Source: a virus
Length of the DNA stretch: 30,796 bases
Reading direction: 5' to 3' (one strand)
Virus record (IMG/VR): IMGVR_UViG_3300012353_000006
Location: 1-30,796 of that record
The notes under the pieces were generated by a model. The model was given only the letters and a program-made list of their open reading frames with translations. It had not been told where the DNA came from and did no database searches. The translations under genes were made by a program, and so were the position numbers. Below, in pieces: positions 896 to 15,222 of this stretch; positions within the stretch are counted from its first letter, which is position 1; every line of letters begins with the position of its first letter.

Positions 896-902
896 TTGGC
901 GC

Positions 903-961
903 GGCAAGGCTAGGCAAGGCAGGGCAAGGCATGGCATGGCATGGCATGGGGCCGTATGGCC
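903..961. repeat. Pentanucleotide tract plus core GGGGCCGTATGGCC, copy 1
   Basis: Nine head-to-tail 5-mers of the GGCAA/GGCAT type (GGCAA, GGCTA, GGCAA, GGCAG, GGCAA, then four GGCAT) run from 903 to 947 and end in the core at 948-961. The core contains GGCC-GTAT-GGCC, a short dyad that could form a 4-bp stem. It lies in the gap between the zinc-ribbon gene and the gene at 984, 22 bases before that start. The same arrangement recurs before the next two genes. Minus-strand open frames here (Ala-Met-Pro-Cys-His periodicities) are by-products of the repeat. Confidence 0.85.
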
Positions 962-983
962 GTAGAGAAGAGGAACAGAAGAA

Positions 984-1646
984 ATGCGTAACTACAGGAT
1001 AGAGATTACGGGAACACAACCACTCTTGATGCACCATGACGACATCGAGTGGGCAGATGTGATGGACTCATGGAGAAACGACCCAAAGAACAAAAAATCC
1101 TCTAAGGCAGGGGACGATCGCACGCCGGCGCATCGCTGGATTGGGTCTTTGTATCACGATAACGGAAAGTTGGTAATTCCAAGCGAGAACATTATGCGCG
1201 CTATAATGGAGGGCGCAGCAATGGTTCTTGTTCCTGGAGGAAAGAGCGGCAAGACATTCAAATCACAGAGTCAATCTGGAATCGTGCCGGCATCGGTAGG
1301 GTGGCCGCTTATCGTTGGAGATAAGGAAATTCCAAGTAGCAAAATATTAGAACTCGCCGTGGTAAGCGACTTCTCTATACACAAAGAAATGGTGCTTTCT
1401 CTCGGATTCAGTCTGTTTCTAAAGCGAGCCAGAATTGGGACGCAGAAGCATATTCGTGTACGTCCAAGATTCGACATATGGGCTGCGGCGGGTGAGCTTG
1501 CTGTTATCGACGATCAGATCACCACCGAAGTGCTCACAAGCATTTTACAGTGTGCCGGCACGTATAAGGGCCTATGTGATTGGCGACCGGGAAGTAAGAC
1601 GCCAGGATCATTCGGCACATTCGTTGCTAATGTTCAGAAGCTTTAG
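984..1646 (+). CDS. Phage protein with N-terminal GTQPLLMHH motif, unknown function
   Basis: 220 residues, start supported by a purine-rich AAGAGGAACAGAAGAA leader. The N-terminus (IEITGTQPLLMHHD) is followed by a charged stretch and then YHDNGKLVIPSENIMRAIMEGA. From memory, this layout (beta strand, PLLMH, then a VIP...NI..ci.eGA segment) recurs in a widespread uncharacterised phage early-protein family; I cannot confirm it by search. A Gly/Lys loop (PGGKSGKTFK) follows and resembles, but does not match, a Walker A motif. Rich in AAA, ATA and ATT codons, so more AT-rich than most neighbours, which suggests separate acquisition. It lies between repeat copies 1 and 2 as a self-contained cassette. 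Confidence 0.75.
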   Translation: MRNYRIEITGTQPLLMHHDDIEWADVMDSWRNDPKNKKSSKAGDDRTPAHRWIGSLYHDNGKLVIPSENIMRAIMEGAAMVLVPGGKSGKTFKSQSQSGIVPASVGWPLIVGDKEIPSSKILELAVVSDFSIHKEMVLSLGFSLFLKRARIGTQKHIRVRPRFDIWAAAGELAVIDDQITTEVLTSILQCAGTYKGLCDWRPGSKTPGSFGTFVANVQKL

Positions 1647-1647
1647 T

Positions 1648-1676
1648 GGCATGGCCTGGCATGGGGCCGTATGGCC
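1648..1676. repeat. Pentanucleotide tract plus core GGGGCCGTATGGCC, copy 2
   Basis: Shortest copy: GGCAT, GGCCT, GGCAT at 1648-1662, then the identical core at 1663-1676. It begins one base after the TAG of the PLLMH gene and ends 35 bases before the next start. The core and the preceding GGCAT are identical to copies 1 and 3, and the AAAC following the core is shared with copy 3. Confidence 0.85.
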
Positions 1677-1711
1677 AAACGCAAGTTTCTCTTACATGAG
1701 GTGACAAAACG

Positions 1712-2185
1712 ATGAGTAATAGGTTTATTGGTGGCAAGTCGACTCGTATGGAAGTCGACGAACTGCTAAATCTAAAAGTCGAGCCTGGTTCAAGTGTGGC
1801 GTACTCAAAGATAGAGGAAATACTTGGCCTATCGAGGAACGAAACACGGTTTCGCACCGTCACTGGAGTATGGCGAAAGAAGCTATTACGCGAACGCGGG
1901 TGGGACACTATATCTGAAAGCGGTGAGTTTCGCATTCTAAGTCCGGCAGAAGCATTGAATGCCGGTATTAGCCGTCTAGAAAAAGTAGGGCGAGCGGCTG
2001 GTCGTACTGTGGTGCGTGTAGAAATTATCGAGGCACATACGCTCTCTCCAGAGGAGCAGCGGCGTCACATGATGCTACGGCGGTATTCTCGCGCGGTGCT
2101 CGAAAGCACACAGGAAGCTGTCAAGCAAGTGGCCATGCCAAAGGCTGTTTCCGGATCGACACTGAGGGTTGCGTCTCGCAGCTAG
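1712..2185 (+). CDS. Putative winged-helix-like DNA-binding protein
   Basis: 157 residues, preceded by GAGGTGA about 9 bases before ATG. Residues 20-60 (VAYSKIEEILGLSRNETRFRTV then WRKKLLRERGWD) have a helix-turn-helix/winged-helix look: a short helix, a Leu-Gly-Leu-Ser turn, a basic helix and a Trp-Arg-Lys-Lys segment. The middle contains a beta-rich GRTVVRVEIIEAHTL and the C-terminal half is helical and Arg-rich, ending in a Ser/Arg tail. The context (repeat copies on both sides, nuclease gene next) points to an early nucleic-acid function. DNA binding is inferred, not shown. Confidence 0.65.
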   Translation: MSNRFIGGKSTRMEVDELLNLKVEPGSSVAYSKIEEILGLSRNETRFRTVTGVWRKKLLRERGWDTISESGEFRILSPAEALNAGISRLEKVGRAAGRTVVRVEIIEAHTLSPEEQRRHMMLRRYSRAVLESTQEAVKQVAMPKAVSGSTLRVASRS

Positions 2186-2189
2186 GAGC

Positions 2190-2294
2190 GGCATGGCACG
2201 GCGGGGCACGGCCGGGTGGGGCAAGGCGATGCTGGGCGTGGCTTAGGCGCGGCGCGGCATGGCAAGGCATGGCATGGCATGGGGCCGTATGGCC
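2190..2294. repeat. Pentanucleotide tract plus core GGGGCCGTATGGCC, copy 3 (longest)
   Basis: About 18 consecutive 5-mers of degenerate GGNNN form (GGCAT, GGCAC, GGCGG, GGCCG, GGCAA, GGCGT and others) with one phase slip near 2245 fill 2190-2280, followed by the same core at 2281-2294. The units nearest the core are the most regular (GGCAT, GGCAA, three GGCAT), while the distal ones are diverged. It occupies nearly all of the 126-base gap before the VRR-NUC gene, ending 17 bases before its ATG. Confidence 0.85.
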
Positions 2295-2311
2295 AAACAT
2301 GAGCAACGGCA

Positions 2312-2731
2312 ATGCGTGAAACCGACATCGAATCCGCCATCACCGCGTATCTGAAATTCGCGCTGCCGCCGCTGGCAGTATCGTTCCACATCCCGAACGA
2401 GGGGCAGCGCGGGTGGAAGTCGCAAGGTGCGTTCAAGCACGCCGGCGGCGTTGCCGGTGTTCCTGACCGCTGCATCCTCTGGAACGGCAAGGCGCATTTC
2501 CTCGAATGCAAGGGGCCGAAGGGCCGACTGTCGCCGGCGCAAGAAGAGATGTTCGTGCGCATCGAGGATGCTGACTGCGAGGTCGCGGTGGTGCGTTCGA
2601 TTGAGGATGTCGAGGCTCGGCTGATCGAGTGGGGTATTCCCATCAACGCACGACTGAAGCTGTCGGCTAATGACGAAATTATGGTGAAATGTGGTCGTAT
2701 GCCTTTGGCACGATGGGCGTCGGAAGAATGA
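2312..2731 (+). CDS. VRR-NUC domain nuclease
   Basis: 139 residues. The first ~95 match the VRR-NUC (PD-(D/E)xK) fold in order: helix with Glu7, IPNEGQRG around residue 30, GVPD with Asp52, the strand carrying Glu65-Cys-Lys67, then GRLSPAQ with Gln77. These are the metal-binding and catalytic positions of the family, and all are present. Stand-alone VRR-NUC proteins in phages are regarded as structure-specific, Holliday-junction-resolvase-like nucleases used in replication or recombination. The last 45 residues extend past the domain. The ATGA overlap with the next gene supports co-translation. It is the third gene preceded by a repeat copy. Confidence 0.88.
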   Translation: MRETDIESAITAYLKFALPPLAVSFHIPNEGQRGWKSQGAFKHAGGVAGVPDRCILWNGKAHFLECKGPKGRLSPAQEEMFVRIEDADCEVAVVRSIEDVEARLIEWGIPINARLKLSANDEIMVKCGRMPLARWASEE

Positions 2732-2948: not shown

Positions 2949-4277
2949 ATGACTGTCACTCTGCTAACTGGTGATGTTCGCGTGATGCTGGCGACGTTGC
3001 CGGCCGAGTCAGTGCATTGCGTCGTTACATCGCCCCCGTACTGGGGATTGCGCGATTACGGCACAGCGACGTGGGAAGGCGGCGATGCGACATGCACCCA
3101 CGATGTTTCGACTATACGCACCAAGCCGGAACTACTTGGTTGCACGTCATGGTCGCATCGCGATGCGAGTGGCTTCAACGGAAATTACTGCCGTAAGTGC
3201 CGCGCACGGCGTATCGATCGACAGCTCGGCTTAGAGGCAACACCGGAAGAGCATGTCGCGAATATAGTCGAAGTGTTTCGTGAAGTGTGGCGGGTGCTGC
3301 GTAAGGATGGGACTTGCTGGATTAATTATGGCGATTCTTATGCCAGTGGTGAGATTGGCAGGCATGATGCGCTTACCGCTGTTGATGGTAATTCTTTGAT
3401 TAATTATAAAGGATTAGGAACGGCACAGAAGACACGCCAACAACGCCGTCTTTTTACTGGCCTCAAGCCCAAAGACCTCGTTGGCATGCCGTGGCGCGTA
3501 GCTTTCACGCTGCAGGCCGATGGTTGGTGGCTACGCTCTGATATTATTTGGGCCAAACCAAATCCTATGCCGGAAAGCGTTACTGACCGGCCGACAAAGA
3601 GCCATGAGTATGTGTTCCTACTAACTAAGAGTGCGAAGTATTTCTATGATACCGAGGCGGTTAGGGAAAAACATGGTGAATTATGTCGTCGGGACAGTAA
3701 TTTTCGGCATCAGAAATATGAAAATCATTCGTCTTTCGACAACAGCAATAAACTAGAACCAAGAATAAACGGACGTGCTGTGCCTGAAAATGGCCGTAAT
3801 CTTCGCTCTGTCTGGACCATCCCCACCGCGCCGTTCTCCGAGGCGCACTTTGCTACATTCCCGCCCAAGCTGGCAGAGACATGCATTCTTGCCGGCACGT
3901 CGGCGAAAGGGTGCTGCTCGATATGCGGCGCGCCCTTGGCACGCAAGCGTATAAGAACCGAATCTGACTACAGGTCCCAAGAAACGCTAAACAAGCACGG
4001 AAAGACTGATTTTAGTCACATCCAGCGTCTTAATGGCAAAAAATACGATCATTCATGGAGTTCGTCTGAAACGTTCATTCCATCGTGTTCATGTCCGCCC
4101 GCCTCGCCTGTTCCTTGTACCGTCCTCGATCCATTCGCCGGTGCCGGCACCACGTTGATGGTGGCCGACCGGCTGCAGCGCCATGCCATCGGCATAGACC
4201 TCAACACCGAATATGCGGCGATGGCAGTAAAGCGCATCAAAAAGGACCAGGGACCGCTGTTCGCGGAGGTTTTATGA
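2949..4277 (+). CDS. DNA methyltransferase (N4-cytosine/N6-adenine type, SPPY class)
   Basis: 442 residues. Motif IV, TSPPYWGLRDYG, is at residues 27-38, and the SAM-binding motif I, DPFAGAGTT, follows near the C-terminus at about 394-402 with a downstream AIGIDLN. This catalytic-before-SAM order is that of beta-class DNA amino-methyltransferases. SPPY favours N4-cytosine but N6-adenine enzymes of this subfamily exist. Two Cys-rich insertions look zinc-binding: one around residues 50-90 (CTHD ... CRKCRARR) and one around 313-390 (CCSICGAP ... SCSCP). The centre carries DIIWAKPNPMPES and SHEYVFLLTKS, conserved in this group. No restriction endonuclease is adjacent, so it is an orphan enzyme, plausibly protecting phage DNA from host restriction. 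Specificity cannot be read from sequence. Confidence 0.93.
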   Translation: MTVTLLTGDVRVMLATLPAESVHCVVTSPPYWGLRDYGTATWEGGDATCTHDVSTIRTKPELLGCTSWSHRDASGFNGNYCRKCRARRIDRQLGLEATPEEHVANIVEVFREVWRVLRKDGTCWINYGDSYASGEIGRHDALTAVDGNSLINYKGLGTAQKTRQQRRLFTGLKPKDLVGMPWRVAFTLQADGWWLRSDIIWAKPNPMPESVTDRPTKSHEYVFLLTKSAKYFYDTEAVREKHGELCRRDSNFRHQKYENHSSFDNSNKLEPRINGRAVPENGRNLRSVWTIPTAPFSEAHFATFPPKLAETCILAGTSAKGCCSICGAPLARKRIRTESDYRSQETLNKHGKTDFSHIQRLNGKKYDHSWSSSETFIPSCSCPPASPVPCTVLDPFAGAGTTLMVADRLQRHAIGIDLNTEYAAMAVKRIKKDQGPLFAEVL

Positions 4278-11428: not shown

Positions 11429-11794
11429 GTGCCCCGTTATATCACCAAGGCGACAGCATCAACAATTGTCGCAAATGTGACTGGCGCGACCGTGCAGACT
11501 ACGGCGCACTCTCTTGGTATTTTCGATTCCAAAAGTCTTGTTGCGTTTCGTTTGGCGTCTAACGTAGGTGATGTTGGCGCAGAAGTATCAGCTAACATCT
11601 ATTATTCAATTGATCCAGCAGAAAATCCAAACTGGATATTGTTTTGTCGTCAAGTAAGCCCAGCAACGATGACAACGGTAATTAATTTTCCGCTCCAAGC
11701 AATTAGAATTGATGTCATGACGAGTTTGGCAAGCGCGCCGTCTGTAGGGGCTACGCCAACATGGGCATACAGCATCCTCCAAAGTGGGACATGA
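11429..11794 (+). CDS. Small beta-rich structural protein, GTG start
   Basis: 121 residues from GTG. Alternating hydrophobic/Ser/Thr sequence (ASTIVANVTGATVQTTAHSL) with few charges, likely a beta-sandwich virion protein. The last bases overlap the start of the methyltransferase gene (ATGA). The second half is richer in AT than the capsid gene. Not assigned to a family. Confidence 0.6.
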   Translation: MPRYITKATASTIVANVTGATVQTTAHSLGIFDSKSLVAFRLASNVGDVGAEVSANIYYSIDPAENPNWILFCRQVSPATMTTVINFPLQAIRIDVMTSLASAPSVGATPTWAYSILQSGT

Positions 11795-12327
11795 CTCTCA
11801 GAGAGATATGGGATAATCATACTGGCCTCTACACAGTTAAGAGAGCTTTGTATCCAGAAGTTTATGATAAATATTTAACTCGGTTTGTTGGAAAACCAGT
11901 CACACTTATAGAGTTTGGTGTTCTACGGGGTGGAAGCTTACAGATATGGCGTAAGTTTCTTGGAAATACAGCAAGGATAATCGGTGTTGATAGTAATCCT
12001 CAATGTCGCGCATTCTCTGATGATGCAGAGATTGTAATAGGAAATCAACAAGACGAGTCTCTATTAGCTGGCCTACCTGATCCAGATATAGTAATAGACG
12101 ATTGCGGGCACTCTCCGTTAGATCAAATGGCTACATTTAGAAATATGTGGCCAAGGCTTAAGAATAATGGGGTATATGCTGTAGAAGATTTGGATAATCA
12201 TGAGCATTTTGTGCAAAATGCGTTTCTTCTTATTCGTGGTGATCTCTTCCCGTTTCATCTTCACCGTTCTATCTTGATTGCAGAAAAGATCACAGAAGAT
12301 GATCATAAAATCAGGGCTGGATCGTGA
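11791..12327 (+). CDS. Class I SAM-dependent methyltransferase (demethylmacrocin-O-methyltransferase-like)
   Basis: 178 residues from the ATG overlapping the previous stop. SAM motif I is E41-F-G43 followed by LRGGS (residues 45-49). The acidic loop end is VDSNP (66-70). DIVIDDCGH places two Asp at 103-104 and His107, the divalent-metal set of the macrocin/TylF-like sugar O-methyltransferases. YAVEDLD (129-135) matches the family's 'GGvYviEDL'. It is therefore likely a metal-dependent O-methyltransferase acting on a sugar or similar hydroxyl. It is shorter than tailoring enzymes but has the full core. Strikingly AT-rich, with AGA, ATA and TTA codons unlike the capsid and adaptor genes around it, which suggests acquisition as cargo. 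The stop overlaps the adaptor gene start (GTGA). Confidence 0.8.
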   Translation: MTLREIWDNHTGLYTVKRALYPEVYDKYLTRFVGKPVTLIEFGVLRGGSLQIWRKFLGNTARIIGVDSNPQCRAFSDDAEIVIGNQQDESLLAGLPDPDIVIDDCGHSPLDQMATFRNMWPRLKNNGVYAVEDLDNHEHFVQNAFLLIRGDLFPFHLHRSILIAEKITEDDHKIRAGS

Positions 12328-14485: not shown

Positions 14486-14665
14486 ATGATGCCGAGCAAG
14501 ACGCCGAAACAAGCGCGATTCATGGCTGCCTGTTCGCATGGGGCCGGTTATCCGAGCTGCCCGCCGTCGAATGTGAGCAAGGAGTTCAACAACGCCGACA
14601 AGGGCGGCCGCATGTTGGCCAAGAGTGCGAAACCGCATTTACCGCCGAAACGTGGCTATAAGTGA
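14486..14665 (+). CDS. Small conserved phage protein (KxxxQxRFMxAxxH ... EFxxADKG)
   Basis: 59 residues. The pattern SKTPKQARFMAACSHGAGY then VSKEFNNADKGG matches, from memory, a family of roughly 60-80 residue phage proteins of unknown function with 'kskaQhrfM.a.a......vp..vakeF..aDkg'. Three Cys residues. The Lys/Arg-rich end (PHLPPKRGYK) suggests binding to nucleic acid or an acidic surface. Often encoded among tail genes, as here. The stop overlaps the next ATG (TGATG). Confidence 0.68.
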   Translation: MMPSKTPKQARFMAACSHGAGYPSCPPSNVSKEFNNADKGGRMLAKSAKPHLPPKRGYK

Positions 14666-15222
14666 TGTGCAACAAAGACTGCATCAACTTCGTGGCCAGC
14701 CGTGTGCACGATGGTGAAATATTCGGTCGACGCATACTTGAAGTTGGATCGAGAGATGTAAACGGCTCTGTTAGGCCAGCAATCGAGGCACTGAAGCCAA
14801 GAGAATATATTGGTATTGATATAGAACGTGGAATTCGTGTCGATCGACTAATTAATGCGCTTGATATCTTAAACGTTTTTGGTGAAAATAGCTTTGATGT
14901 CGTGATTTCCACAGAGATGCTGGAACATGTAGAGGATTGGCGAACTATAATTAACAACATGAAACGTGTTCTTATTCCTGGCGGTATCATTTACATAACA
15001 ACTAGATCGGAGGGATTTAAATATCATAACTATCCACACGATTTCTGGCGATATAGCATCAAAAATACCAAAGCCATATTCTCAGATTTTGAACAAGTGG
15101 AAGTGGTGCCTGATCCATCCTGCCCAGGAGTATTTGTAAAGGCGCGGAAGCCGCTTGACTTTCATGAGATTGATTTGAGCGGAATTGAACTAAGCTCCTC
15201 TCTTAAAGAGAAGAGAACATGA
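14665..15222 (+). CDS. Class I SAM methyltransferase, Methyltransf_11-like
   Basis: 185 residues from ATG 14665 (a GTG one codon earlier is also in frame). SAM motif I: LEVGSRDVNGS at residues 25-35, with YIGIDIE at 48-54 giving the acidic ribose-binding position. Motif post-I and IV: FDVVISTEMLEHVEDW. Then RVLIPGGIIYITTRSEGFKY and YPHDFWRYS, characteristic of a methyltransferase group common in surface-polysaccharide clusters and some phages. The end CPGVFVKARKP is conserved there too. The substrate is unknown; a sugar, lipid or small molecule is more likely than DNA because there is no target-recognition domain. AT-rich like the 11791 enzyme but not similar to it, so two independent cargo enzymes. 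Confidence 0.85.
   Translation: MCNKDCINFVASRVHDGEIFGRRILEVGSRDVNGSVRPAIEALKPREYIGIDIERGIRVDRLINALDILNVFGENSFDVVISTEMLEHVEDWRTIINNMKRVLIPGGIIYITTRSEGFKYHNYPHDFWRYSIKNTKAIFSDFEQVEVVPDPSCPGVFVKARKPLDFHEIDLSGIELSSSLKEKRT

Follow-up and report, generated by a model that had tools for sequence, protein, structure and literature searches.

The window analysed here spans a complete IMG/VR virus record (30,796 bp), and the locus under study consists of three pentamer arrays alternating with three genes. Array A (898..947, plus strand) contains 10 perfect GGC-NN units (NN = GC AA TA AA AG AA AT AT AT AT) and closes with a constant tail (948..962, +), GGGGCCGTATGGCC, made up of GG plus a 4-bp hairpin with a GTAT loop. 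Downstream of it lies a gene for a predicted Cas7/RAMP-like protein of 220 amino acids (984..1646, +; "PLLMH" protein, PHROG 4652), which we call vipr. Array B (1648..1662, +), with only 3 units (AT CT AT), and its tail (1663..1677, +) separate this gene from a vap-like gene (1712..2185, +) that encodes a 157-amino-acid predicted winged-helix DNA-binding protein. Array C (2190..2280, +) is irregular in spacing, with 11 units, one 3-nt spacer and then 7 units (NN = AT AC GG AC CG GG AA GA TG GT TT(A) GC GC AT AA AT AT AT); its first 11 units include one GGT and one TGC, and one extra A stands before the last 7. Its tail (2281..2295, +) is followed directly by a VRR-NUC nuclease gene (2312..2731, +).

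Exact copies of GGGGCCGTATGGCC occur three times in the whole record, at 948-961, 1663-1676 and 2281-2294, all on the plus strand; the closest other match, inside coding DNA, differs at 2 positions. The original prediction, made from the window alone, had described a core repeated exactly three times, each copy closing a pentamer tract before a gene, with no fourth copy in the window, and both statements held (copies starting at 948, 1663 and 2281). So did its distance of 17-35 bases between core and start codon, which we measured as 22, 35 and 17 nt for the open reading frames (ORFs) beginning at 984, 1712 and 2312. GGYNN pentamers lead up to each copy, in runs of 10, 3 and 18 units for arrays A, B and C, and no other in-phase GG run of comparable length exists in the window. 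The predicted unit counts of 9, 3 and about 18 were thus right for B and C, and array A has 10 units from 898 rather than 9 from 903. A CRISPR-type array of identical repeats and unique contiguous spacers is absent from the window, which has pentamer arrays only, and scanning the window proteins against PHROGs or Pfam revealed no cas genes. Two methyltransferase-like ORFs, read from motifs only, lie amid the structural genes at 11761-12327 and 14662-15222.

Phages and plasmids yielded no DNA-level relatives of the region, or only an unrelated methyltransferase, and scans of viral contigs with long exact core patterns returned no matches. Scanning for two units plus GGGGCC-N4-GGCC recovered the exact core with long arrays at loci L034 (2), L046 (2), L055, L067/L082 (7 + 2 on one record), L043, L070 and L071, together with many unrelated coding matches that have no arrays. 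L034, L046 and L071 share the window's layout, with arrays ahead of the PLLMH gene and in the interval up to the orthologue of the ORF at 1712. A close relative of the first gene (L031, 58% identity) is directly preceded by an array ending in GGGGCCAATTGGCC and followed by one ending in GGGGTCTATGACC. The check proposed with the original prediction, a search of relatives for the core with GGNNN pentamers tied to gene starts, was therefore positive, and the elements sit at gene boundaries there too. The richest array set of the window's tail family is found on the L067/L082 record (L067 5165-5765 and L082 352-495), where at least nine same-tail arrays precede one vipr, seven of them in tandem.

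The exact window tail with an array also occurs at L086 1090-1150 (Reyranella massiliensis 521), L043 806-874 and L070 953-1051. Within our genome collection, Reyranella massiliensis carried the pattern and the sole other match was a chance match in coding DNA. No vipr gene was detected in the whole Reyranella genome, in the 74-kb L043 record or in L070, which is only 5 kb long. In L070 the array stands between two genes, and the second of these resembles a portal gene.

We asked how closely the arrays and the PLLMH protein keep company in data that do not depend on the window's core. The core-blind DNA pattern (GGCRW)5GG yielded 26 viral loci from very different phages, with other tails. An iterated profile search started from the window protein found a PLLMH homologue within a few kb at 18 of these 26 loci and at 0 of 45 loci without arrays. 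For the reverse direction, 80 loci were fetched by protein motifs only and scanned for any in-phase triplet, with an array threshold of at least 9 of 16 GGY in phase. A GGY array lay on the gene strand at 63 of the 80 homologue loci, on the opposite strand at none of the 80, and in shuffles at 1 of 80; GGC was the leading triplet in most arrays of this set. The other 17 loci, some of them truncated, fell under the threshold. The pairing extends to isolates: Mycobacterium phage Quico, Gordonia phage Ecliptus, Pseudomonas phages LESphi2 and Medea1, Cyanophage Cy-LDV1 and Escherichia phage wV8, the last with GGT instead of GGC. In wV8 (L093), repeats at 2759-2816 and 4152-4209 that the record annotates only as DR_4 flank vipr (gene 95) and a vap-like gene (gene 94) and overlap GGTNN arrays and their tails; they are unrecognised vrRNAs in Felixounavirus genomes. 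A spacing of 2 nt dominates between GGY units (1938 of 2308 spacings). A further 304 of the 2308 spacings are 1 nt, and GGCAGGC, which has such a spacer, recurs between runs of about 8-12 units (L016 3990-4150 and many loci in L094-L173), where it perhaps marks the boundary between guides.

The protein that accompanies the arrays is predicted to have a Cas7/RAMP-like fold. An AlphaFold2 model built with 19 relatives reached a pLDDT of 86.6, and among the Protein Data Bank matches listed, all 50 were of the Cas7 family, either the Cas7/Csm/Cmr backbone of type III and VII complexes or Cas7-11 (best E = 1.5e-4); TM-scores of the model against Cas7 were moderate, at 0.4-0.5. The invariant residues of the family include a glycine-rich C-terminal stretch (...G.G..RP...G.F), a typical feature of RAMP proteins. 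No Pfam family was found for the PLLMH protein, while PHROG 4652, an independent hidden Markov model, matches 10 of 10 tested family members. A profile of the window protein and its relatives matches Vipr of Escherichia phage SUSP1 (28495-29061) with E = 2e-23, and the SUSP1 vipr locus carries flanking GGY arrays whose tails resemble those of wV8. At L055 (2271-2654), the vipr after the array matches only over its first ~70 positions and then diverges, as a truncated or rearranged vipr.

VIPR, a phage-borne relative of CRISPR, was described by the Doudna group in a preprint of April 2026 (PMC13142463). Its components are a RAMP protein encoded by the phage (Vipr), vrRNAs in which 9-16 GGY/NN repeats precede a constant 3' tail, and a Vap gene. 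The system binds double-stranded DNA through the NN letters with one skipped base, represses competing phages and is said to be ancestral to CRISPR Cas7 proteins (PMC13142463). The original prediction knew of no element type with the build seen here, yet this build, GGY/NN repeats closed by a constant 3' tail, is that of VIPR vrRNAs (PMC13142463). We conclude that the three elements very probably encode the vrRNAs of a phage VIPR system resembling those of SUSP1 and Pseudomonas fulva, type II-like in having Vipr and a DNA-binding Vap, and that the locus reads as array A, vipr, array B, vap and array C. Computed here for this assignment were the array and tail structure, the protein-array association, the Cas7-like fold, the homology to SUSP1 Vipr, the tail covariation and the hypervariable NN in relatives.

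By analogy with the preprint, from which the NN code, ribonucleoprotein formation and repression are taken (PMC13142463), Vipr (984-1646) would assemble in 5-nt steps on the GGY-NN repeats of each vrRNA, which would end in the fixed hairpin tail GGGGCCGTATGGCC. With one target base skipped, the NN pairs would guide the complex to the double-stranded DNA of a rival phage, prophage or satellite, where it would block the target's transcription, and Vap (ORF 1712-2185) would assist the complex. In this phage, arrays A and C are inferred to be expressed and active. The 3 units of array B fall short of the 9-16 repeats of the preprint, by which A (10) and C (11 + 7) qualify (PMC13142463). At this length array B could not specify a target, and it is perhaps a remnant or a minimal array.

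Comparison of near-identical phages bears on whether the NN letters behave as guides. Identity between L034 and L046 is 96% in the flanks and 95% in the GGY triplets but only 36% in NN; the same NN-only divergence appears in L105/L106, L132/L135 and L151/L152. Some close pairs, L150/L151 and L148/L150, have also retained NN. The differing behaviour of these pairs suggests that GGY is maintained while NN turns over in bursts. The original prediction had seen regular GGCAT units beside the core and a tract decaying away from it. The run of GGCAT beside the core is peculiar to the window phage, as relatives show AA, GA, AG or AT there, and the decay proved illusory: the GGY triplet stays constant and the next two letters are free throughout the window arrays and in all relatives.

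These comparisons also weigh on two mechanisms that the original prediction had offered. Slippage-prone simple repeats or low-complexity spacer DNA would account for the pentamer periodicity and for the tract lengths of L034 and L046, which differ by a 10-bp gap, that is, by whole units. Slippage would, however, yield identical neighbouring units, whereas here only GGY is constant, the 2-nt spacing dominates and the arrays track one protein family; we therefore give this explanation next to no credence. Recombination boundaries at which early-gene cassettes are exchanged fare little better. Next to the array, vipr is 81-82% identical between L034 and L046 over its first ~200 bp against 95-100% further on, which points to some exchange near arrays, and the core recurs beside other genes (L043, L070 and L086). 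Against this, relatives retain the same vipr and vap neighbours, the order array-vipr-array-vap is kept across distant phages, and no recombinase family is linked to the core; cassette exchange would also leave the protein association and the NN-only divergence unexplained. We regard it as highly improbable and retain the VIPR assignment.

The tail offers a second comparative view. It consists of GG plus a four-pair hairpin, and 100% of the pairs hold over eight tails. Two stem pairs change on both sides (CG to UA) and sliding the structure destroys the signal, although eight are few sequences. The tail hairpin does not emerge from thermodynamic folding of single arrays, and therefore the pairing may need protein. 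Rfam gave no match. A leader-peptide start inside the core was considered and rejected: an ATG is present in the core, and its reading frame is not conserved.

A structured RNA element ahead of genes could also be a cis-acting leader. The Cas7-like protein would then bind the GGY repeats in the mRNAs of vipr, vap and the nuclease and regulate their translation or stability, with no DNA targeting. Leaders would fit the position of the arrays on the coding strand, their ends, which often fall no more than 60 nt from a start codon, and their place 17-35 nt before the three window genes. Simple leader binding does not predict hypervariable NN beside constant GGY, seven tandem arrays before one gene (L067) or the DNA targeting demonstrated for SUSP1 (PMC13142463), and we consider it very unlikely. 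The earlier suggestion of regulator binding sites or a common 5' element survives in the VIPR assignment loosely, as RNAs bound by the phage protein of the next gene.

The gene between arrays B and C resembles those for Vap1-type proteins. ORF 1712-2185 is orthologous to the second gene at L034, L046 and L071, and its profile matches the vipr-adjacent gene of wV8, Medea1 and LESphi2 (hhalign E = 2.5e-5, probability 75%, a match made weak by profiles of only 3-4 sequences); the matched genes are those of Felixounavirus and Pseudomonas phages. Its fold model is winged-helix-like at modest confidence, and the fold search gave no match below E = 0.001. The VRR-NUC gene is probably a neighbour and not a VIPR component, because no homologue was found at the VIPR loci of relatives. 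A bolder version of the system would derive the guide RNAs in this lineage from the operon's own gene leaders and have VRR-NUC act as a Vap, giving a DNA-cutting VIPR, with the tail-bearing phages and Reyranella prophage that have no vipr supplying guides in trans to another phage's Vipr; we think it unlikely.

Target searches used the rule shown for SUSP1, NN pairs with a 1-nt skip. Across 2.9 million viral contigs, we found no credible target for arrays A or C. Nine of the 10 units of array A matched 9 viral contigs of 25-41% GC, six of which represent one gene family, with the tenth unit mismatched; these matches are best read as chance. Nine units of array C matched no viral contig, and the Reyranella array had no target in its own genome or in 100 relatives. 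When skip rules were compared locally over 207 guides, matches of at least 8 units numbered 17 for a skip of 1, against 5, 4 and 9 for skips of 0, 2 and 3 and 9 for shuffled order, a difference too weak to single out the 1-nt skip.

VIPR type II, known from SUSP1 and a Pseudomonas fulva prophage (PMC13142463), shares with the window a Cas7/RAMP-like Vipr, GGY/NN RNAs with an invariable structured 3' tail, a small DNA-binding Vap adjoining vipr, and arrays before and after genes. The window differs in its short tail (GGGGCCGTATGGCC), where that of SUSP1 is longer and has a pseudoknot, and in its 3-unit array B, the irregular spacer of array C and the VRR-NUC gene downstream. Class 1 CRISPR-Cas effector ribonucleoproteins (Cas7/Csm3/Cmr4) have in common with it the Cas7-like fold and repeating protein steps on a guide RNA with a constant end. 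They differ in their repeat-spacer arrays and cas genes, neither of which was seen in the window, and in a 6-nt step on a contiguous guide as opposed to the 5-nt GGYNN period. The start-associated sequences of cluster K mycobacteriophages (consensus GGGATAGGAGCCC, 3-7 bp from the start, containing a Shine-Dalgarno sequence; PMC3203893) are likewise short conserved sequences by the starts of non-structural genes, in one orientation and in part with inverted repeats. No GGYNN array or linked RAMP protein is described for them (PMC3203893), and the window core is GGGGCCGTATGGCC at 17-35 nt, not GGGATAGGAGCCC 3-7 bp before a start. Other ideas dropped in favour of VIPR were a TRAP-like ring protein reading a triplet every 5 nt, sites for a single-strand annealing protein, G-quadruplexes, Chi-like protection and PAM decoys.

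VIPR is thus an already known kind of system, and what is new here is a lineage with a distinct family of short tail hairpins and some unexplained local features. The survey gives VIPR independent support from data not selected by structure, leading from arrays to the protein and from the protein to arrays in phages of several bacterial phyla. The guide model is put to a direct comparative test by the covariation in the tail and by near-identical phages that diverge in NN only, and the tail-bearing genomes with no detected vipr raise the question of guide sharing between phages.
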